Source of the DNA: Balneolaceae bacterium | Lineage (GTDB): Bacteria; Bacteroidota; Rhodothermia; Balneolales; Balneolaceae | Length of the DNA: 44,777 bases | NCBI GenBank assembly: GCA_007134085.1 | Contig: SLLL01000078.1 | Location: 1 to 44,777 of the forward strand | Direction of reading: 5' to 3' | In this document: positions 4,614-44,777 of the stretch, one piece after another | Position numbering within the stretch: the first letter of the stretch is position 1 | Layout: every line of letters begins with the position of its first letter | Notes under the pieces: generated by a model | The model's database searches: none | Told to the model about the DNA's origin: nothing | Seen by the model: the letters and a program-made list of their open reading frames with translations, nothing else | Made by a program: the position numbers and the translations under genes

Positions 4614-7022
4614 ATGCACACTACCATGATTTTGCACCCTGAGCATTCCTCGTTTAAGATTGGATTCCAATCCGTGAAAGAGGCAGCGCTCCGTAAAGCT
4701 TTTACGCCGTATGGGCGAGAGTACCTTGAGAATTTATATCCATCGGCTAATTTTGACGAAGTTTCAGAACAACTATTCCGGGCATCAGAATGGATGCAAC
4801 TGCTTCAGAGTGGTTCGAATCATCCTCTCTCTGTTGTTGATGATGTACGCGATGCTGTTAAGGAGAGCCGAATTTCAGGCAATTTACTTCCGCTTGATGA
4901 TTTCGTGGTAATACTCCAAAATGCGGCTTTGGCCCGTATCATCAAACAATTTTTCGAAAAAACGGAGGATGAGTACCCTTCTCTCAGAAAAATCACCAAT
5001 CAGCTTATAAACCTTAAGCCGCTTGAAACAGCTATTCAGAGAGTAGTTACAGACAGAGGTGAACTTCGCGATGATGCAAGCCCGGAGCTTAGACGCATAA
5101 GAACACGCATCAACCGCGAGCGAAACCGCCTCAGAAGTACCATTATGCAGGTGATGAGGCGGGCAGCAAAGGACGGGATGACCTCAGACGAGGGCGCCAC
5201 CATACGAAACGGGCGCATGGTAATACCCATTTTGGCTGAATACAAGCGAAAGGTTCAGGGATTTATTCAGGATGTATCATCATCAGGCCAAACCGTTTAC
5301 CTTGAACCGGTTGAGGCGCTGCAGATCAACAATGATATCCGCCAGCTTGAAGCCGAGGAGCAGCGCGAGATTGAAAAGATTATTCGTCAGCTTACCTCGG
5401 AAGTGCGCAAATATGCCGATGGCCTTTTTGAAAATACTATTCACATTGCGCTGTTGGATACTATCCAGTGCCGGGTTCAAACCGGCTTCGATCTCGACGG
5501 CACCATCCCGGTTATTTCAAAAGAGAGCAACCTTGATCTGATTCGGGCACGAAATCCAAATTTGTTGCTAAAAAACAGAACCATCAAAAATGCCGAACCG
5601 GTTGTGCCGCTCGATCTGAAGCTGGCCGATGATGAGCTTGGACTGATTATCACCGGGCCGAATGCCGGTGGAAAATCGGTAGCCATGAAAACTGTCGGAA
5701 TGCTCAGCTTGATGCTTCAAAGCGGCTATCCCATTCCCGTTCAGCCCGATTCTGTTTTGCCAATCATCAGCAGCCTGTTTCTTGATGTGGGCGACGATCA
5801 ATCCATAGAAAATGATTTGAGTACGTTTTCATCACGGCTTCACTGGATGAAGCAGACCCTTGATCAGTTGCAACCCGGAGCACTTATATTGATAGATGAG
5901 GCGGGATCAGGTACGGACCCCGAAGAGGGAGGCGCACTTTTTCAGGCTTTTGTTGAGGAGGTTATCAGCCGAAATTGCAGAGTAATTGTAACCACTCATC
6001 ACGGTTCGCTGAAGGTTTTTGCGCACGAACATCCTAATGTTGTAAACGGTGCGATGGAGTTCAACCAGGAAAACCTATCCCCCACCTACAAATTCAAAAA
6101 AGGGATACCCGGAAGCAGCTACGCATTCGAAATTGCCGAGCGGATGCATCTGCCGGCTAATCTGATGAAAAAAGCGAGAGGGCTTCTTGGTGAAAACCGG
6201 GATAAAATGGGCGAACTGCTGGTAAGCCTCGAAAAAAAAATGCAGGAATCGGAAGAGCTTACGCACGAATATTCTCGCAGGTTGCGGGAGATTGAAAAAC
6301 GTGAACGAATCTACAGAGAACAGGCAGATAACACCGATCAAAAGCGAAAAAAAATCCTCGAAAAAGCGTACAAAGATGCCGGTGATATTATGCGGGATGC
6401 AAACCGGCGAATTGAAGAAGCCGTTGAGAAAGTTGTGCAGGAAGGCCGCGAGAATAAAGAAAAAATAAAAGAAGCCCGGAAAGAGCTGGCCGGTGCGAAA
6501 AAAGAGATCTCGGAAAAACAGCAACATTTCGAAGAAGAAACCGAAGAGGAGATATTCAGAAGTAAAGACAAGCCAACAGTGGGTGATTATGTGCTAATTG
6601 GCGACAGCAACACGCGCGGAGAGCTTGTGGAAATTTCCGGCAAGCAGGCAACGGTACTTATGAACGGGATGCGGGTAAAATCAAAACTGAATAAACTCAC
6701 CAAAACTAATCCACCAAAAAAAGAGAAGGCATCAAGATTTTCGCGTTCTTACAGCACATCAAACGACCTTGACCTTTCGGTTAAGCCATCCCTCGATCTT
6801 CGCGGAAAACGGGGTGATGAAGCAATCACCGAATTGACGCTTTATCTCGACAAGGCGATTGCACGCGGCCTGAAACAGGTTGAAATTATCCATGGCAAGG
6901 GCGAGGGTATTCTGCACAAACTGGTAAATGAATATCTTGAAAACCGCCCCGAGGTAGAATCTTTCGAAATCGCCCCATGGGAAAGCGGCGGCACAGGGTG
7001 CACAGTTGCCAATCTTACATAA
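4614..7022 (+). CDS. mutS2: Endonuclease MutS2
   Basis: Walker A GPNAGGKSVAMKTVG, ILIDEAGSGTDPEEGGAL, C-terminal Smr domain LDLRGKRGDEAI...IIHGKGEGILH. Confidence 0.95.
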   Translation: MHTTMILHPEHSSFKIGFQSVKEAALRKAFTPYGREYLENLYPSANFDEVSEQLFRASEWMQLLQSGSNHPLSVVDDVRDAVKESRISGNLLPLDDFVVILQNAALARIIKQFFEKTEDEYPSLRKITNQLINLKPLETAIQRVVTDRGELRDDASPELRRIRTRINRERNRLRSTIMQVMRRAAKDGMTSDEGATIRNGRMVIPILAEYKRKVQGFIQDVSSSGQTVYLEPVEALQINNDIRQLEAEEQREIEKIIRQLTSEVRKYADGLFENTIHIALLDTIQCRVQTGFDLDGTIPVISKESNLDLIRARNPNLLLKNRTIKNAEPVVPLDLKLADDELGLIITGPNAGGKSVAMKTVGMLSLMLQSGYPIPVQPDSVLPIISSLFLDVGDDQSIENDLSTFSSRLHWMKQTLDQLQPGALILIDEAGSGTDPEEGGALFQAFVEEVISRNCRVIVTTHHGSLKVFAHEHPNVVNGAMEFNQENLSPTYKFKKGIPGSSYAFEIAERMHLPANLMKKARGLLGENRDKMGELLVSLEKKMQESEELTHEYSRRLREIEKRERIYREQADNTDQKRKKILEKAYKDAGDIMRDANRRIEEAVEKVVQEGRENKEKIKEARKELAGAKKEISEKQQHFEEETEEEIFRSKDKPTVGDYVLIGDSNTRGELVEISGKQATVLMNGMRVKSKLNKLTKTNPPKKEKASRFSRSYSTSNDLDLSVKPSLDLRGKRGDEAITELTLYLDKAIARGLKQVEIIHGKGEGILHKLVNEYLENRPEVESFEIAPWESGGTGCTVANLT

Positions 7023-28481: not shown

Positions 28482-28775
28482 ATGAATTATAAACAGCTGA
28501 TAGACAAACTTTCTGATAAAACCGGAAACTCAAAGGTAAAAACCAAAGAGCTTCTTCAGGATACCGTAGACGTACTCACCAAACAACTGTGTGACGGAAA
28601 AGGTGTATCAATCCCCGATTTGGGTACATTCAGCACAAAAGTTAGCGATGAGAAAAAAGTCTATAACCCCCACTACGATGCTTACATGATGGTACCGCCA
28701 AAGCGTGTAGTTGAATTCAGCCCTGCCGCCGGGCTTAAAGAAGAAATTAAGTTTTTGGAAACCGGAAATGAGTGA
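28482..28775 (+). CDS. HU-family DNA-binding protein
   Basis: MNYKQLIDKLSDKTGNSKVKTKELLQDTVDVLTKQLCDGKGVSIPDLGTFSTKV..., HU fold pattern. Confidence 0.8.
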   Translation: MNYKQLIDKLSDKTGNSKVKTKELLQDTVDVLTKQLCDGKGVSIPDLGTFSTKVSDEKKVYNPHYDAYMMVPPKRVVEFSPAAGLKEEIKFLETGNE

Positions 28776-30018
28776 AAAAATCACCTTTAAGGAGCTGGTT
28801 GAACAAATTTCCAGCCAATCGAACCAGAGCCAAAGCTCAACAAATAGCTTTATACACGAACTGGTTCAGATTATTGAGGGTGGGCTGAAAAAAAGCGGTT
28901 CAGTCAGTATTTCCGGTTTTGGTAAATTCGAGCTCCGGTGGATGAATGAACGTACCGGTACAAATCCCCAAACAGGCGAAGAAATTGTTATACCGGGACA
29001 GAATAAAGTTGTTTTTAAGCCTTATAAAGCTTTAAGAGAGGATGTTAACAAACCATTTGCAAGCCTTAAAGCAACTGTTCTCGGAGGCGCTGCATCTAAA
29101 CCAACGGAAGAAAAAGCAGAACCTGCACCTGAGCCTCAAGAATCAGAAGAGAGCGAAACAATAGAAATTCCTTTTATTGCTGCAAAAGCCAAAGAGGTTA
29201 GAAGAACATCGGTACCCGTTGACGAACTTTTGATAGAACACGACAACCCTCACTTCCCAGAAAGCGGCCCTTTTGCCGCTTTAGTTGCAGATGAAGAAGA
29301 CGCTGAAGCTGCCATTCCGGCAATTCTCCCTAATGAAGAGAAAGTTGCCAAAGAGGTACAGAAATCCGGTTCATTTAAATGGTCATACGCAGCAGCGGTT
29401 ATCATCGCACTCATCGCATTCATTATTCTATTTCTGATGTTTCAGAGAATGGGTGATACGTCGGCACCGGCAACCGCTGATCAAACTGAGCAAGTTTTAA
29501 CACCTGTGGAACCACGAGTAGTACCTGATACAGATGCAACGACAGAACCCGGTGCCACTTCCGCTACAGAATCCGATGTTACCCCTACGATCGAATCTGA
29601 TCCTGCCGCCGTAACAGGGCCCGATCCTGCTCCGCAACTGCAGACAGAATTTGAAACACAAAGCCACACTGTTGCACCCGGTGAATCATTATGGTCTATT
29701 GCAGAGGCAAACCTTGGCAATCCATATTTATGGCCAATTATTTACCAGCTGAATGGAGATATTATCACAAACCCTAATCAGTTGCCTGCAGTAGCTGAGC
29801 TTAACATACCAGTCATTTCTGATCCGGAAAACCTCAACGAGTTTGAAAGAGAGCAGGTAGCACTTGGTTATTTTGCGTTATATGATTGGAACAGAGAAAA
29901 CAGCCCGGAAGACGCCCGTTTTTTCCTTTGGGCAGTAGGGGTATTTTCGCCCGAACTTCTGGAGGAACCCCCCTCAGAGGTTGACCCGGACGATCTGGCA
30001 TTTGCCCTGAACAGATAG
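28768..30018 (+). CDS. HU/IHF domain - TM segment - LysM fusion protein
   Basis: ITFKELVEQISSQS...SVSISGFGKFELRWMNERTGTNPQTGEEIVIPGQNKVVFKPYKALREDVN; TM WSYAAAVIIALIAFIILFLMF; LysM SHTVAPGESLWSIAEANLGNPYLWPIIYQLN. Start 28768 chosen (8-bp overlap with preceding HU). Confidence 0.87.
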   Translation: MSEKITFKELVEQISSQSNQSQSSTNSFIHELVQIIEGGLKKSGSVSISGFGKFELRWMNERTGTNPQTGEEIVIPGQNKVVFKPYKALREDVNKPFASLKATVLGGAASKPTEEKAEPAPEPQESEESETIEIPFIAAKAKEVRRTSVPVDELLIEHDNPHFPESGPFAALVADEEDAEAAIPAILPNEEKVAKEVQKSGSFKWSYAAAVIIALIAFIILFLMFQRMGDTSAPATADQTEQVLTPVEPRVVPDTDATTEPGATSATESDVTPTIESDPAAVTGPDPAPQLQTEFETQSHTVAPGESLWSIAEANLGNPYLWPIIYQLNGDIITNPNQLPAVAELNIPVISDPENLNEFEREQVALGYFALYDWNRENSPEDARFFLWAVGVFSPELLEEPPSEVDPDDLAFALNR

Positions 30019-30059
30019 GCCACATCTAAATAAAACCTTTTTAAAATACGGAGAAAACT

Positions 30060-30371
30060 ATGATACGCCATATCGTAATGTGGAAACTTAAAGAACAAGC
30101 AGCAGGAGCTACTAAGCAAAAAAATGCTGAAAAATTGAAACTTATACTTGAAGGCTTGCGCACTAATATTGATGAAATAAAAGCTGTAGAGGTTGGCATA
30201 CAGATCAATCAAGATGAAAATGAGGCTTACGATGTAGTTCTCATCATGGATTTTGAAACAGATCTTGATTTCCAGATGTACACCAGAAATCCGCACCATA
30301 AAAAAGCGATGGATTTCATAGAGCAAACTACCGAAAAGCGCCGATTTGTTGATTATAAAGTAGATCTTTGA
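30060..30371 (+). CDS. Dabb (stress-responsive A/B barrel) domain protein
   Basis: MIRHIVMWKLKEQAAG...NIDEIKAVEVGIQIN...AYDVVLIMDFETDLDFQMYTRNPHHKKAMDFI. Confidence 0.88.
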   Translation: MIRHIVMWKLKEQAAGATKQKNAEKLKLILEGLRTNIDEIKAVEVGIQINQDENEAYDVVLIMDFETDLDFQMYTRNPHHKKAMDFIEQTTEKRRFVDYKVDL

Positions 30372-31252
30372 TGCCCTACTCATTACTACCAGTAGATGGT
30401 TCATCAAATTTTGATTGCAACCGCACATTTGGATTAATCTGTGAAGAGCTTTTTGGGTTTATAGAGCTGCGCAAAGAAAACCCTGTTGAGGCAACTCATC
30501 AAAGCAGGAAAAAGCTGAAGCTATTAAGGGCGTTTGCTAAACTGATTAAACCTGCCAGAAATGATGCAGATTACAAAGTGGCGAATATTTTGTTAAGAGA
30601 CTGGGGAAGGGCCTTTTCTGGCCTGAGGGATGCTCATGTGAGAAGTATTCTTTTAAATGATCTTTACATCAACCCCGGTTTTGAAGATCAAAATCAAGTG
30701 ATTGGTGAATTACAGAAACGAAATCAGAAAGTAGTTTCCTCTCTTGAAAAAAGCACGTTACACAGCTTTGACGAATTTGCATTACTTGAGAAAAATCTAA
30801 AACAGAACTTAGAAGTTCGCCATTACTTTTCTGAGCCTGCTGATACAGATTTAGTCACTAAAGGTTTTGAAACCAGTTTCTTAAAAAGTAAGAAAGCTTT
30901 TTCTTGTGCATTCGCTTCCGTGGACGCAGACGACGTACACGAATGGCGAAAACGCGCAAAAGATATACAGTACCAAACCGAATTGCTGATGCCTACAACT
31001 GAAGAAGGCACCGTATTAAGATTTCACACCCAAATATCAGATATTTGTGAACACCTGGGGAATGCTAACGACTTTCATATGCTCTATGTTTGGGCAGAAA
31101 AAAACGTGGTATTAAATAATACTGAAGGCCATTCTGCATTGTTGAAAAAAATTGACGATGCCAACAAAAGCGCATTAAATATAGCTGAAGAGAGCGGAAA
31201 ACACTTTTATGATGACTATGCAGAGCCTGTTTCTACACTAATCAACAAATAA
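30371..31252 (+). CDS. CHAD domain protein
   Basis: NPVEATHQSRKKLKLLRAFAKLIKPA...LLRDWGRAFSGLRDAHV; second half DVHEWRKRAKDIQYQTELL; ATG at 30371. Confidence 0.82.
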   Translation: MPYSLLPVDGSSNFDCNRTFGLICEELFGFIELRKENPVEATHQSRKKLKLLRAFAKLIKPARNDADYKVANILLRDWGRAFSGLRDAHVRSILLNDLYINPGFEDQNQVIGELQKRNQKVVSSLEKSTLHSFDEFALLEKNLKQNLEVRHYFSEPADTDLVTKGFETSFLKSKKAFSCAFASVDADDVHEWRKRAKDIQYQTELLMPTTEEGTVLRFHTQISDICEHLGNANDFHMLYVWAEKNVVLNNTEGHSALLKKIDDANKSALNIAEESGKHFYDDYAEPVSTLINK

Positions 31253-31260
31253 GTTTTGAT

Positions 31261-31563
31261 ATGGATCACGAAGAGCCGGAGCACATTGAAATAAATGGTG
31301 TTCTTGATCTGCACCCCTTTCGCCCGCAGGATCTCTCCACGCTGATTGATGAGTATATCTACGCGTGCCTGGAGAAAGAGATCTACTCAGTTCGGTTCAT
31401 CCACGGGAAAGGAATTGGCAACATCAGGCGCAGTGTACATGCCCTGCTTGACCGAAACCCTCATGTATCCGGATACCAGCTTGCCGATCAAAGCGGCGGC
31501 GGATGGGGAGCAACCATTGCAAACCTTATTCCTGCAAAATCAGGCAAAAAAAAAGAGGCCTAA
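31261..31563 (+). CDS. Stand-alone Smr domain protein
   Basis: LDLHPFRPQDLSTLIDEYIYACLEKEIYSVRFIHGKGIGNIRRSVHALLDRNPHVSGYQLADQSGGGWGATIANL. Confidence 0.9.
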   Translation: MDHEEPEHIEINGVLDLHPFRPQDLSTLIDEYIYACLEKEIYSVRFIHGKGIGNIRRSVHALLDRNPHVSGYQLADQSGGGWGATIANLIPAKSGKKKEA

Positions 31564-31575
31564 AAGAGGCCTCTT
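31553..31575. terminator. Rho-independent-like (possibly bidirectional) terminator
   Basis: AAGAGGCC-TAAAAGA-GGCCTCTT, perfect 8-bp stem, preceded by A tract, followed by AATTT, between convergent genes. Confidence 0.8.
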
Positions 31576-31608
31576 AATTTGAAGTTGAGATTGGTTACCG
31601 ATACTGCC

Positions 31609-34536
31609 TTAGTTCAGGAACTGATCAAACGTGAACGAAACATAGTAGATCGCTCCGAGATTTGGCCCGCCGTAGTTTAGGAAGTGCCTGTTGTTGGTGA
31701 TGTTTGACCCACCAAGCTTTACCACTGAGCGAAGGTTAGGCACTCTGTAAGAAACTTGCGCGTCCAGAGTTGAAATTGCAGGCACGGTACCATCTGCGAA
31801 AGATGATGTCCAGTCAAACTCATCTTGCCATCTGAAGGTGAGGTTGAAGCCTAAATTATTGGTTAGCCTTCTGTTACCGAGTGAAACATTCACTTTGTGC
31901 TCTGGCGTATTAAAATCAAAAATAAAGCCCCCATCCTGATCTGTAATCAGCTGATTCCAGTTATAATTGGCGGATAACAGGAAGTTTCTTGGAAGGCTAT
32001 AATCAAACCCAAACACAGCACCGTGCGAGCGTACAGTTTCATCCAGATTGGTGTAGAGCTGGAAGGTGTTTTCAGCAGTACCAGAAAGCAGTGAGCCTGC
32101 AATCTGCTGATCAACCACCGGGTCACCAGTAAAAGGCGCTGCTGCCCTTCGAACTCTAAACTGAGCGATAAAATCGTTGTAAATGTTGTGGTAGTATGCT
32201 GCATCAATTAACAAACGATTTCCAAGCAATCCTTTATAGCCAACTTCGAATGACTGAATCTGCTCTGGTTTCACTTCATTGAAGTTAGTAAATGGCACGA
32301 GCTGCTGCGCTGCTGCAGGGTTGCCTGCGAGTAATTGCTCAGTAAAACGCTCTACTGATTGCAGTGTAAATGCATTTTCAGTTACGTTGTAGGGGGCAAC
32401 TGTCTGATTCAAACCGCCCAGCAACCTTGCAGTAAGAACATCAAGGTCAATAAACTGGCCCTGAGTGGTTGGGTTTCTGAAACCGGTTTGATACGAAGCA
32501 CGGATGTTCTGGCTGTCTGCAACGCGAATAACGGATGAAATTCTTGGGTTAATCTGCCCTTCAAAGTTCTCGTTCTTGTCATAACGGAGTGAACCTGTTA
32601 GGCGAAGCCTGTCGTCAAGCAGAGATCGGGAAGCCTGTATGTAACCACCATACTCATTGATATCGATGCCGCCATCAGCATCAGCGAAAATAGTTCCATT
32701 AGAACGCAACTGATATTGACGGAAGCTCAGGCCTACCTGAAGGTCAACAAAATCGATTTCGTTTTTGAAATCGTACTGCCCTTCAACATGAATAAATCGG
32801 GATTGATCATCAAATCTTGCTCCTCTTGGAACAACACCATCCAGAGCTACCTGCTTTGCATTTTCAAACTCAGGTGTGCCCGGCTCAAACCGGTTCACAT
32901 CAGCTGCAGCTCTGGCCGCATTGTGCAGATTATTTAATATGGATGGATTGCTCAGTATAGCTTCGATAGTAGCAGGATTGAACGCAGGGTTGCCTTGAAC
33001 CTGGTTTGCTGCCTGCAACATACCACCTGCAAATGCTGCTGCATACTGGCCAAACCATTGGGTTGTAGGCATATATTGATCATTGATTGAGAAGCCAACA
33101 AAATCTGCAATGTAAGAATCACCCGAATCTTCGAAAGTACCATAAGCGCGTACCATGAAGTTGTCCCCTTCAAACTCAAGTTTGTGTTGTGCAATGCTGA
33201 AGTTGCTTAAGCTATACCGTTGTGCACCACTATATACCGATGTTCCATATCCATAATTAAATGTATAGCTGGCTTCCAGATTGTCTGTAATCCTGTAGTG
33301 GAGAGAAGTACCAAGTTTTAGGTTTTTCGCGTCGCTATCTACTAAAAACTCTTCTCTGTATCCTGTTCTTGCTACAGGCTGTACAGGAAGCGCAGAAAGA
33401 TACTGCTCAGCGAGGCCTACAGGTATTCCGGCAGCCTGAGCAAGGCCTTGTGCCACCTGAGTTCTGTTCGGGCCCGGAAGGCCTAAAAGAGCAATATTAA
33501 AGGTTCCATCATCACCATAGAGGTGTACACCGTCAAAGGCGGGATTTACATCAACGCCTGCAGGTGCAAGAGAAGCATTTTTATCACGAAAGTTAATACC
33601 TACCCAGTCATCCGCCTGCATGTAGCTGAAGTTTACTTTAAAAGCGAAACGGTCACCAATCACATCGGCATAACGTAATGATGTTTCGAACATAGGGCGT
33701 GGGTTGCCCGGCTCGCCGAGTGCAGAATTACCATCTATATGGTTCACGCCGTTTTGAACATGCACACTCAGGCCCGGATAGCGGAATGGGTTCTTGCTGT
33801 TCACCAAAAGAATACCGTTGAAAGCATTCGGCCCATACAGAGCTGAGGATGCACCCGGAAGAAATTCAACGCTCTCAACATCCAGAACAGAGGGGCCGTT
33901 AAGGTTACCAATCGGGAAGTTCAGTGCGGGAGCTTGCGTATCCATACCATCTGTAAGCTGCACCATTCGGGTATTACCGGTAGAGTTAAAGCCTCTGGCA
34001 TTGATAATCTGGAAGTTGATACTGCTTGTGGTCATATCAACACCTTTCAGGTTTGCCAAACCCATATAGTAGCTTGGTGCAGGTGTTTGATTCACAGCAA
34101 TAATATCCATCTTTTCAATGGATACAGGAGCATCCAGAATGCTCTCTTCAACCCTCGAAGCGGAAACTACGACATCGGTTCCAAGAAATGTCTCTTCACT
34201 CAACTCAATGCGAAGATCGCTTACGTTTTGTTCTGTAATTTCAAGCCTTTGAGTTGTGTAGCCAATTATAGATACGGAAACCGTGATTGGGGGTGTACCA
34301 TTGTAACGTAGGCTAAACTCTCCACGAGCATTTGTAGCAACACCAACCATGCTGCCCACTACAACAACATTAACACCAGCTAAAGTTTGGCCTGTAGCAG
34401 CATCAACTACAACGCCTGATATTGTCATTCTGTCGTCATCAGCATTTTCAGCTGCTTGAGAGTGCAGCGGCATCATCAGACAAAAAGCAACGAAAAGACA
34501 TAGCAATTTCCCGGTGGAATTGTAATTTATTTTCAT
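31609..34536 (-). CDS. TonB-dependent receptor with N-terminal carboxypeptidase-D-like regulatory domain
   Basis: TISGVVVDAATGQTLAGVNVVVVGSMVGVATNARGEFSL; plug YYMGLANLKGVDMTTSSINFQIINARGFNSTGNTRMVQLTDGMD; barrel ends YYVSFTFDQFLN. Confidence 0.93.
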   Translation of the reverse strand: MKINYNSTGKLLCLFVAFCLMMPLHSQAAENADDDRMTISGVVVDAATGQTLAGVNVVVVGSMVGVATNARGEFSLRYNGTPPITVSVSIIGYTTQRLEITEQNVSDLRIELSEETFLGTDVVVSASRVEESILDAPVSIEKMDIIAVNQTPAPSYYMGLANLKGVDMTTSSINFQIINARGFNSTGNTRMVQLTDGMDTQAPALNFPIGNLNGPSVLDVESVEFLPGASSALYGPNAFNGILLVNSKNPFRYPGLSVHVQNGVNHIDGNSALGEPGNPRPMFETSLRYADVIGDRFAFKVNFSYMQADDWVGINFRDKNASLAPAGVDVNPAFDGVHLYGDDGTFNIALLGLPGPNRTQVAQGLAQAAGIPVGLAEQYLSALPVQPVARTGYREEFLVDSDAKNLKLGTSLHYRITDNLEASYTFNYGYGTSVYSGAQRYSLSNFSIAQHKLEFEGDNFMVRAYGTFEDSGDSYIADFVGFSINDQYMPTTQWFGQYAAAFAGGMLQAANQVQGNPAFNPATIEAILSNPSILNNLHNAARAAADVNRFEPGTPEFENAKQVALDGVVPRGARFDDQSRFIHVEGQYDFKNEIDFVDLQVGLSFRQYQLRSNGTIFADADGGIDINEYGGYIQASRSLLDDRLRLTGSLRYDKNENFEGQINPRISSVIRVADSQNIRASYQTGFRNPTTQGQFIDLDVLTARLLGGLNQTVAPYNVTENAFTLQSVERFTEQLLAGNPAAAQQLVPFTNFNEVKPEQIQSFEVGYKGLLGNRLLIDAAYYHNIYNDFIAQFRVRRAAAPFTGDPVVDQQIAGSLLSGTAENTFQLYTNLDETVRSHGAVFGFDYSLPRNFLLSANYNWNQLITDQDGGFIFDFNTPEHKVNVSLGNRRLTNNLGFNLTFRWQDEFDWTSSFADGTVPAISTLDAQVSYRVPNLRSVVKLGGSNITNNRHFLNYGGPNLGAIYYVSFTFDQFLN

Positions 34537-42278: not shown

Positions 42279-43844
42279 TTAATTTCTGCTGCCCCTGTTA
42301 CTGCTTGAGCGTGAGCTTGAGGCCCGGCTGTTTGAACTACTGGATGAAGAACGTACTGTAGATCGATTATTTGATGAGCTAGAGCTTCTGTTAACAGTGG
42401 ATCTGTTTGTGCTTCTGTTGTTAGTTGATCTTACTGTAGATCGATTATTCACTGCACGGTTTACTGTACTTGAAGTAACGGCACTTGAAGCACCACGTAA
42501 TACCTCTCTTGCAATTGCACTTCGGCGAGATTGAGTATTGTTGTTTGCTCTGTTATTAACATTTACCGTTTGGGTTGTGGTAACTCGGTTTCTCACAGAT
42601 TGAACAGCCTGCTGCTGTCTTGTAGCAGGCCTTTGTACACTTACAGCATTTCTTTGCTGATTCTGAGACGAAGAAACAGAGCCTCTGTTCACAGTTGTTG
42701 AAGAATTTCTAACAGAAGAGCTTGTATTCCTGTTTGTTGTTGATCTGTTTACAGAAGAGTTCGTATTTCGGTTGTTTGTACTTCTGTTAACGGTGCTTCT
42801 ATTTGTATTTGTGGAACTGTTTCTGTTAACTGTACTACGGTTAGTATTTGATGAGTTGTTACGATTTACAGTACTTCTGTTATTGCTTGAGGAATTATTG
42901 CGGTTTACAGTACCTCTATTGGTATTGGATGAATTATTCCGGTTTACAGTACCACGGTTAGTACTTCCGGAATTGTTTCGGTTTACAGTACCTCTATTGG
43001 TACTGCCTGAGTTGTTTCGGTTTACGGTTCCACGGTTTGTGTTTCCTGAGTTACTTCTTGTTACCGCACCTCTGTTAGTTGTTCCGCTGTTGTTCCGGTT
43101 AACGATTCCTCTGTTTACCTGCTGGGTTCTCGCAGTGGAGCGGACATCTGTCCGGTTTCTGACATTCGCAGTTGTACGAGCATCTGCGCGTGTATTTCTG
43201 TTCAATGTTTGGGTGCCACGTGATGTAAGTGCTGTACTTCTTGGCCCATAGTTTACAGCTCTGGTTGAACGGCTTGTATGATAATAGACTGTTGCAAAGT
43301 GTGGCCTGTGGTAATAATTCCAGCCCCAATAACTTCCGTAATAGGGGAAATAACCCGGGTAAGCATAATATGAATAGAATCCAAAGTGGTATGGGCGATG
43401 CCAGCCACTATGAAATGCTAAACTAAATCTCCAGCTCGGGTATCTGTAGAACAGAAATGGGCTGTGATAAAAAGAATAAAAATGTGGATGATAAAAGCCA
43501 CCAAAGCCGAAGTGATGATGATGTACAACTGATCTTCTGAACTGAGGAGAATGAGTCAAAGTTGCACCATAGTTCAAATACCAGTCCCTTGTAGCATAGT
43601 CAACGAAATAGTACGCTTCGGCATCTTCCCAGCCGTCTTCATAGCCCAGAACGTAATCATCTTCATTCACAATTTGTGATGATCTTTCCTGCACAGAAGC
43701 CTGCGTTGAAGCTGCGCGATCTACAGGAAGCCTCTCAGATGGCAAAGGTGCCCGCTCAACAGTTTGGAGCTGTGTGTAGCAACCGGTAAAAAAAAGTGCT
43801 GCTACTGTTAAGATGATGGCGTGTAATGTTTTTGAAGATTTCAT
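42279..43844 (-). CDS. Lipoprotein with His/aromatic-rich domain and R/N/S/T low-complexity tandem-repeat region
   Basis: Lipobox MKSSKTLHAIILTVAALFFTGC; HHHHFGFGGFYHPHFYSFYHSPFLFYRYPSWRF; repeated NRGTVNRNNSGST. Confidence 0.8.
   Translation of the reverse strand: MKSSKTLHAIILTVAALFFTGCYTQLQTVERAPLPSERLPVDRAASTQASVQERSSQIVNEDDYVLGYEDGWEDAEAYYFVDYATRDWYLNYGATLTHSPQFRRSVVHHHHFGFGGFYHPHFYSFYHSPFLFYRYPSWRFSLAFHSGWHRPYHFGFYSYYAYPGYFPYYGSYWGWNYYHRPHFATVYYHTSRSTRAVNYGPRSTALTSRGTQTLNRNTRADARTTANVRNRTDVRSTARTQQVNRGIVNRNNSGTTNRGAVTRSNSGNTNRGTVNRNNSGSTNRGTVNRNNSGSTNRGTVNRNNSSNTNRGTVNRNNSSSNNRSTVNRNNSSNTNRSTVNRNSSTNTNRSTVNRSTNNRNTNSSVNRSTTNRNTSSSVRNSSTTVNRGSVSSSQNQQRNAVSVQRPATRQQQAVQSVRNRVTTTQTVNVNNRANNNTQSRRSAIAREVLRGASSAVTSSTVNRAVNNRSTVRSTNNRSTNRSTVNRSSSSSNNRSTVRSSSSSSNSRASSSRSSSNRGSRN
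42784..43095. repeat. Eight-unit 39-bp coding tandem repeat (13-aa period)
   Basis: Units at 42784, 42823, 42862, 42901, 42940, 42979, 43018, 43057; e.g. CGGTTTACAGTACCTCTATTGGTACTGCCTGAGTTGTTT. Confidence 0.85.
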
Positions 43845-44287: not shown

Positions 44288-44777
44288 CTAACTACTGCCA
44301 CGGCTTGAAGAACCCTGGCTTGACGGCCTGCTGTTGCCCGAAGGCCTTGCTGCACTACTGCTTGTGTTACCCCTGTTAGAAGTCCCTCTAAATGAACTAT
44401 TTCCTGTAGATCTCATGGTTCCTGCTCTGTAAAACGTGGATTGGGATCGGGTAGCATTAGTTCTTGCCCTGTTGTGTGTAGAGTTTCTGTTCTGTGCTGC
44501 ACTGTTATAATCTAATCTATTATCATATGTGTACCAACCAACTAGAGGCGGCCTCATAAACTGATCTCTTTCGAAACTTCTTTGGTACTGAGCATATCTC
44601 CTCTCGCGCAGGTTCTGCTGCCTTTCGTTAACCACCACACGCTCAGCAGACGGGAGATTTATCTGATACCTTATGCTGGTAGTAGCAAGACTTTCTCCCC
44701 GGCCCACAAATGTGTTGTTTACATGCCTGGTTCTATTCCTGGATTCATTATCCACGCCTCCACCTGAAAGCCCTGTT
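44288..44777 (-). CDS. Partial CDS (5' part beyond window): R/N/S-rich low-complexity protein
   Basis: Frame stays open to window edge (..TGLSGGGVDNESRNRTRHVNNTF); C-terminus NRGNTSSSAARPSGNSRPSSQGSSSRGSS resembles neighbour's tail. Confidence 0.65.
   Translation of the reverse strand, partial: TGLSGGGVDNESRNRTRHVNNTFVGRGESLATTSIRYQINLPSAERVVVNERQQNLRERRYAQYQRSFERDQFMRPPLVGWYTYDNRLDYNSAAQNRNSTHNRARTNATRSQSTFYRAGTMRSTGNSSFRGTSNRGNTSSSAARPSGNSRPSSQGSSSRGSS

Follow-up and report, generated by a model that had tools for sequence, protein, structure and literature searches.

A possible two-subunit, membrane-anchored HU protein with a LysM-like domain in Balneolaceae, Bacteroidales and some gammaproteobacteria

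Two overlapping genes in the window, by which we mean the 44,777-nucleotide stretch of Balneolaceae DNA analysed here, encode a small HU-type protein, HUa, and a second HU protein, HUb, that carries a predicted membrane helix and a LysM-like domain. On balance we lean toward HUa-HUb as the functional unit of the locus, a two-subunit membrane-anchored HU that would tether the nucleoid to the cell wall. Direct links between nucleoid and wall have been under discussion for decades, and to our knowledge candidate proteins for them are few.

Five genes and their boundaries

Five plus-strand open reading frames lie between 28482 and 31563 in the order HU, HU-TM-LysM, Dabb, CHAD and Smr, and the first-pass annotation had described them as co-directional genes with these domains and with junctions that, in order, overlap by 8 nt, leave 41 nt, overlap by 1 nt and leave 8 nt; the ORFs give the same values, and Pfam backs the HU, Dabb, CHAD and Smr domains above their cut-offs and LysM slightly below its own. 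HUa (28482-28775, plus strand, 97 aa) scores 74.2 bits against PF00216, cut-off 22.4, a match to the HU/IHF superfamily, and HUb (28768-30018, plus strand, 416 aa) scores 84.8 bits against the same profile, as expected of a regular HU domain. They are followed on the same strand by a Dabb-domain protein of 103 aa (30060-30371; PF07876, 80.0 bits), a CHAD protein of 293 aa (30371-31252; PF05235, 75.7 bits) and a stand-alone Smr-domain protein of 100 aa (31261-31563; PF01713, 64.2 bits, cut-off 25.7) in which the LDLH, HGKG and GGWGAT motifs are all present. The HUa stop and HUb start share 8 nt of the plus strand, ATGAGTGA (28768-28775), and translational coupling of the two genes is likely.

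The cluster had also been said to end at a perfect 8-bp hairpin terminator. A hairpin is indeed found at 31553-31575, with a perfect stem of 9 bp, but its run of seven T residues is on the minus strand and the plus strand reads on as AATTTGAAG. Because of the strand of the T tract the hairpin fits the convergent TonB-receptor gene (31609-34536) better than the HU-to-Smr genes; it is probably the terminator of the former, and we rejected it as that of the latter. Elsewhere in the window, a MutS2-like protein (4614-7022) ends in an Smr-like motif, so that the window holds two Smr-type proteins, and a lipoprotein-like ORF on the minus strand (42279-43844) contains tandem repeats rich in Asn, Arg, Ser and Thr, with a similar ORF at 44288-44755.

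Architecture of the two HU proteins

The AlphaFold2 model of HUb places an HU domain at residues 7-94, a disordered linker of ∼100 residues, a transmembrane helix at 205-228, a second disordered linker, a LysM-like unit at 297-348 and C-terminal helices. The HU, membrane-helix and LysM-like portions are all modelled confidently, with pLDDT values above 94 for the LysM-like unit and the C-terminal helices, and the HU part matches HU and IHF structures in Foldseek. Residues 297-301, 308-316, 319-328 and 344-348 of the LysM-like unit form, respectively, a strand, two helices and a strand, giving a beta-alpha-alpha-beta arrangement. By profile the assignment is close to threshold: LysM (PF01476) reaches 19.4 bits in the window protein, slightly below the cut-off of 20.9, and 21.4 bits in a gammaproteobacterial HUb (L159), and NCBIfam PRK11198 matches the window protein at 28.6 bits, under its own cut-off. 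In the Pfam scan LysM went undetected in several Bacteroidales HUb proteins, and none of the HUb proteins scanned matched SPOR, the place of which is occupied by LysM. Of the 71 HUb proteins, 69 have one predicted transmembrane segment. The cytosolic linkers at two loci carry short repeats (VEA and VQEVQG; L100:7962-8408 and L096:8279-9412), the contig of L100 stopping inside the repeat.

The DNA-binding arms of the two proteins have fared differently. In HUb the arm motif R-x-G-x-NPQTGE and its relatives, together with I-P and F-x-P, is kept in Balneolaceae and gammaproteobacteria, the tip reading NPQTG in most Balneolaceae and NV/NI-TGE in Bacteroidales. The HUa arm of the window protein, YNPHYDAYMMVPPK, is non-canonical; in an alignment for which what we take to be the E. 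coli HU sequence served as yardstick, the arm is changed in Balneolaceae (YNPHY...VPPK) and mostly lost in some gammaproteobacteria, and DNA binding by HUa is uncertain because of these alterations. Median isoelectric points also vary, being 6.1 (slightly acidic) for HUa of Balneolaceae, 9.9 for that of Bacteroidales and 10.2 for that of gammaproteobacteria, with corresponding values of 8.9, 6.7 (near neutral) and 10.2 for the HU domain of HUb. These differences in charge between groups suit a division of labor within a heterodimer, without proving one.

They would also suit a reading in which chance and vertical inheritance account for the adjacency of the five genes, HUb no longer binds DNA and HUa-HUb is a protein scaffold at the envelope. 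The eroded or altered HUa arms and the shifting charges speak for such a scaffold, as does the protein-interaction role that Burroughs, Kaur, Zhang and Aravind (Cell Cycle, 2017) reportedly proposed for the HU domains of eukaryotic CCDC81 proteins. Against it stand the arm motif and basic charge that HUb keeps in Balneolaceae and gammaproteobacteria and its regular HU profile score, and we regard a scaffold as unlikely, though it is the strongest of the competing explanations.

In the tether that we prefer, HUa and HUb would be co-translated as the subunits of an HU-type complex of their own, in all likelihood a heterodimer, the HU body of which would bind and bend DNA in the cytoplasm. From there HUb would extend through its long flexible cytosolic linker to the single membrane helix and on through the periplasmic linker to LysM, seated on peptidoglycan. 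We infer both kinds of binding in vivo, as well as the role at the nucleoid, where the tether would probably position, spread or segregate the chromosome. Weighing against it are the low or missing LysM matches, the altered HUa arms, the acidic Balneolaceae HUa and near-neutral Bacteroidales HUb domains, and the patchy occurrence of the pair.

Pairing, distribution and shared history

HUa is directly upstream of HUb on the same strand at each of the 71 distinct loci that let us read both, 44 of them of Balneolaceae type, 18 from Bacteroidales and 9 from gammaproteobacteria; two stretches, L056 and its copy L079, stop at a contig edge at that point. The HUb start was taken to be the ATG nearest the HUa stop (GTG in L097), and the M that is invariant in the first column of the alignment backs this choice. 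On that footing 64 of the 71 loci have the two genes overlapping, by 1-11 nt, and the other 7 have them 2-17 nt apart.

A maximum-likelihood tree puts 46 HUa sequences in one clade (support 100/99) and 47 HUb sequences in another (100/98), both apart from 7 ordinary HU proteins, in an alignment of ∼100 columns with few outgroups and with the long-branch rows L174_a and L002_can omitted; the HUb sequences had been chosen by profile, and their grouping is therefore partly a matter of choice, while those of HUa had been chosen for their position next to HUb together with a weak match to the profile. Distance matrices for HUa and HUb correlate with r = 0.916 over the 71 loci, as compared with a permutation maximum of 0.187, a value of which much would be expected from the species history common to both genes alone. 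From these comparisons HUa and HUb appear to be old, distinct subunits.

A scan of named genomes, together with whole-genome searches, showed that most Balneolaceae genera and part of Bacteroidales encode HUb-like HU-TM-LysM proteins, as do 9 genomes out of 54 in one gammaproteobacterial order. The whole-genome searches did not find the pair in other families of the order that includes Balneolaceae, a result to be read as a lower bound on occurrence. With few candidates scored per genome and strict thresholds, the pair is present in at least 11 of 395 Bacteroidia genomes and at least 1 of 399 Pseudomonadota genomes, the sole carrier in the latter set being the query center itself. We considered whether the gammaproteobacterial matches are stray contigs and dismissed the idea, as they come from several genomes of one order with a common local gene order around the pair. 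The pair is patchy and has been lost in some Balneolaceae, and hence is not universally required. In one genus (g3, genome G029; L185:5853-6281) acn and Dabb remain in place with neither HU gene between them, a joint loss.

What lies beside the pair changes from group to group, and includes Dabb, CHAD and Smr, or hemW, in Balneolaceae; ftsY-rimO before and MoxR/Bat after it in Bacteroidales; elsewhere rho or ppk1; and a ParA/MinD-like ATPase, a TRAP transporter or leuC/leuD in gammaproteobacteria. The ATPase gene (L159:8868-9536, and likewise in L164 and L165) is convergent with the pair in three gammaproteobacterial genomes, and the polyphosphate kinase gene ppk1 (L167:8659-10746) is divergent from it in one Bacteroidales genome. 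This variety bears on an alternative to the structural tether, in which HUb would sense DNA or act as a regulator from the membrane, for envelope-stress signalling or for DNA uptake. The layout, like that of a single-pass receptor with one end for DNA and the other for the wall, is what such a protein might have, and the patchy distribution is in keeping with it, but genes for signalling or uptake are not found repeatedly next to HUb across the groups and HU is a DNA-architecture fold that comes here with no effector domain. We judge a sensor improbable, more so than the scaffold.

Neighboring genes and known relatives

The first-pass annotation had proposed that the locus might couple DNA, polyphosphate and the cell wall. 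Spelled out, the five genes would form one operon in which the nucleoid, anchored by HU, receives polyphosphate granules through CHAD, and Smr processes nucleic acid. The short spacings in the window favor this, as do the properties of the CHAD protein itself: residues H43, R46 and K50 are invariant in 15 orthologues and are the counterparts of His253, Arg256 and Arg260 of CtCHAD (PMC6537752), and the model (mean pLDDT 91.5) matches the CHAD-polyphosphate structure 6qva, and also 3e0s. Alone, then, CHAD is a sound candidate for polyphosphate binding. No ppk or ppx gene was seen by eye among the ORFs of the window; PPK1 is encoded in the same genome, on another contig, and the divergent ppk1 of the Bacteroidales locus is a further point in favor of the five-gene proposal.

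Conservation of the neighborhood is where the proposal falters. Across 28 stretches taken from related genomes, the genus of the window retains the order HUa, HUb, Dabb, (CHAD), Smr, but it also retains the surrounding cysS, folE, rluB, TonB-receptor and ABC-system genes. Among 21 loci with enough DNA, Dabb and Smr adjoin the pair at every one (Smr of L042 being read by direct translation), the TonB receptor at 19 and CHAD at 15, and folE does so at 15 of 19; since CHAD falls below the TonB receptor its linkage does not exceed local synteny. At the HU-pair locus CHAD is limited to a single Rhodohalobacter-like genus of Balneolaceae. It is absent even there from five genomes (G003, G007, G013, G014 and G018), some of whose assemblies are incomplete, and in all five the locus is contiguous without it; none was found in any other Balneolaceae genus sampled, and the three CHAD genes met with elsewhere in the order, in other families, have unrelated contexts. 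The Dabb-CHAD spacing ranges from an overlap to several hundred nt. PPK1 occurs in 49 of 59 related genomes, with CHAD present or not, and we saw no clear link between loss of CHAD and loss of PPK1.

Beyond the genus the locus contracts to acn-HUa-HUb-Dabb(-Smr) and then to HUa-HUb alone beside hemW, the latter arrangement, free of Dabb, CHAD and Smr, being that of Balneola and Gracilimonas relatives. Dabb is kept as neighbor in part of Balneolaceae only, and Smr is gone beyond close genera. The survey of gene neighborhoods that the first-pass annotation had suggested as a check thus separates the two halves of its idea: conservation of CHAD and Smr does not reach past close relatives, whereas the HU pair is conserved widely. 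What survives is a DNA-to-wall connection through HU-TM-LysM as a two-gene unit; the five-gene polyphosphate module, with CHAD confined to one genus, is largely refuted, and we consider it very improbable. In the tether reading Dabb, CHAD and Smr would be neighbors by local synteny, with CHAD probably a separate polyphosphate-granule protein.

The nearest described relatives of HUb are reportedly the HU-CCDC81 proteins of Bacteroidota, to which the same 2017 paper is said to ascribe an HU-TM-SPOR layout and a predicted role in chromosome partition. HUb resembles them in its N-terminal HU-superfamily region, transmembrane helix and putative C-terminal peptidoglycan-binding domain, and differs in having a regular PF00216 HU domain, in carrying LysM where they have SPOR, and in being accompanied by an HU partner gene that looks obligate. 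Membership of HUb in the CCDC81 family was rejected on score: against PF18175 (cut-off 35) HUa and HUb reach 17.2 and 14.1 bits, and against PF18174 (cut-off 26) HUa reaches 13.3 bits. A separate membrane-anchored HU-SPOR protein, which matches CCDC81 weakly but has a clear SPOR domain, is encoded in the same genome (contig C185; L183:2763-3884) next to ExbB/TolQ-like and TonB-like genes, and for this reason two sorts of connection between DNA and wall, HUa-HUb and HU-SPOR, probably exist in this organism.

Other comparisons are more distant. The HU parts score 38.4 and 28.0 bits against HU-HIG (PF18291), and no wHTH, Ig or glycine-rich partner was found. HU-alpha/beta and IHF-alpha/beta likewise consist of two paralogous PF00216 subunits of HU fold, and the best NCBIfam matches of our pair are IHF-alpha and HU, at scores under the curated cut-offs; unlike those heterodimers, HUa and HUb are encoded by overlapping genes of one operon, and HUb is membrane-anchored with LysM. 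The CHAD protein of the locus shares with phosins (CtCHAD, 6qva; PMC6537752) the fold and the H-xx-R-xxx-R/K polyphosphate motif, but it is a single copy located away from polyphosphate-metabolising genes and, among the Balneolaceae sampled, is found at the locus in this genus only. AlgP of Pseudomonas aeruginosa is presented in PMC9239181 as a histone H1-like protein that spaces polyphosphate granules, and is similar insofar as a DNA-associated protein influences granule placement; the abstract describes no HU-TM-LysM layout. For B. thetaiotaomicron, a table in PMC10434189 contains HU as well as LysM proteins without linking them, and none of the papers covered by our literature search joins 'HU domain' with 'LysM domain'.

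Whether HUa-HUb is an unrecognised class of nucleoid protein across Balneolota, Bacteroidota and some gammaproteobacteria, existing beside HU-SPOR, is a suggestion that we make tentatively and hold with somewhat less conviction than the tether itself. The claim to novelty for the HU-LysM fusion is limited in that the HU-CCDC81 paper may already list HU-LysM proteins. The experimental target is corrected, from the polyphosphate and Smr neighbors to the HU pair. Cultured bacteria with the pair include Rhodohalobacter sulfatireducens, which also has CHAD, R. halophilus, which lacks it, Gracilimonas mengyeensis and Aliifodinibius salipaludis; as Rhodohalobacter and Gracilimonas carriers are in culture and Bacteroidales have the pair too, the idea of a tether between nucleoid and wall is directly testable.
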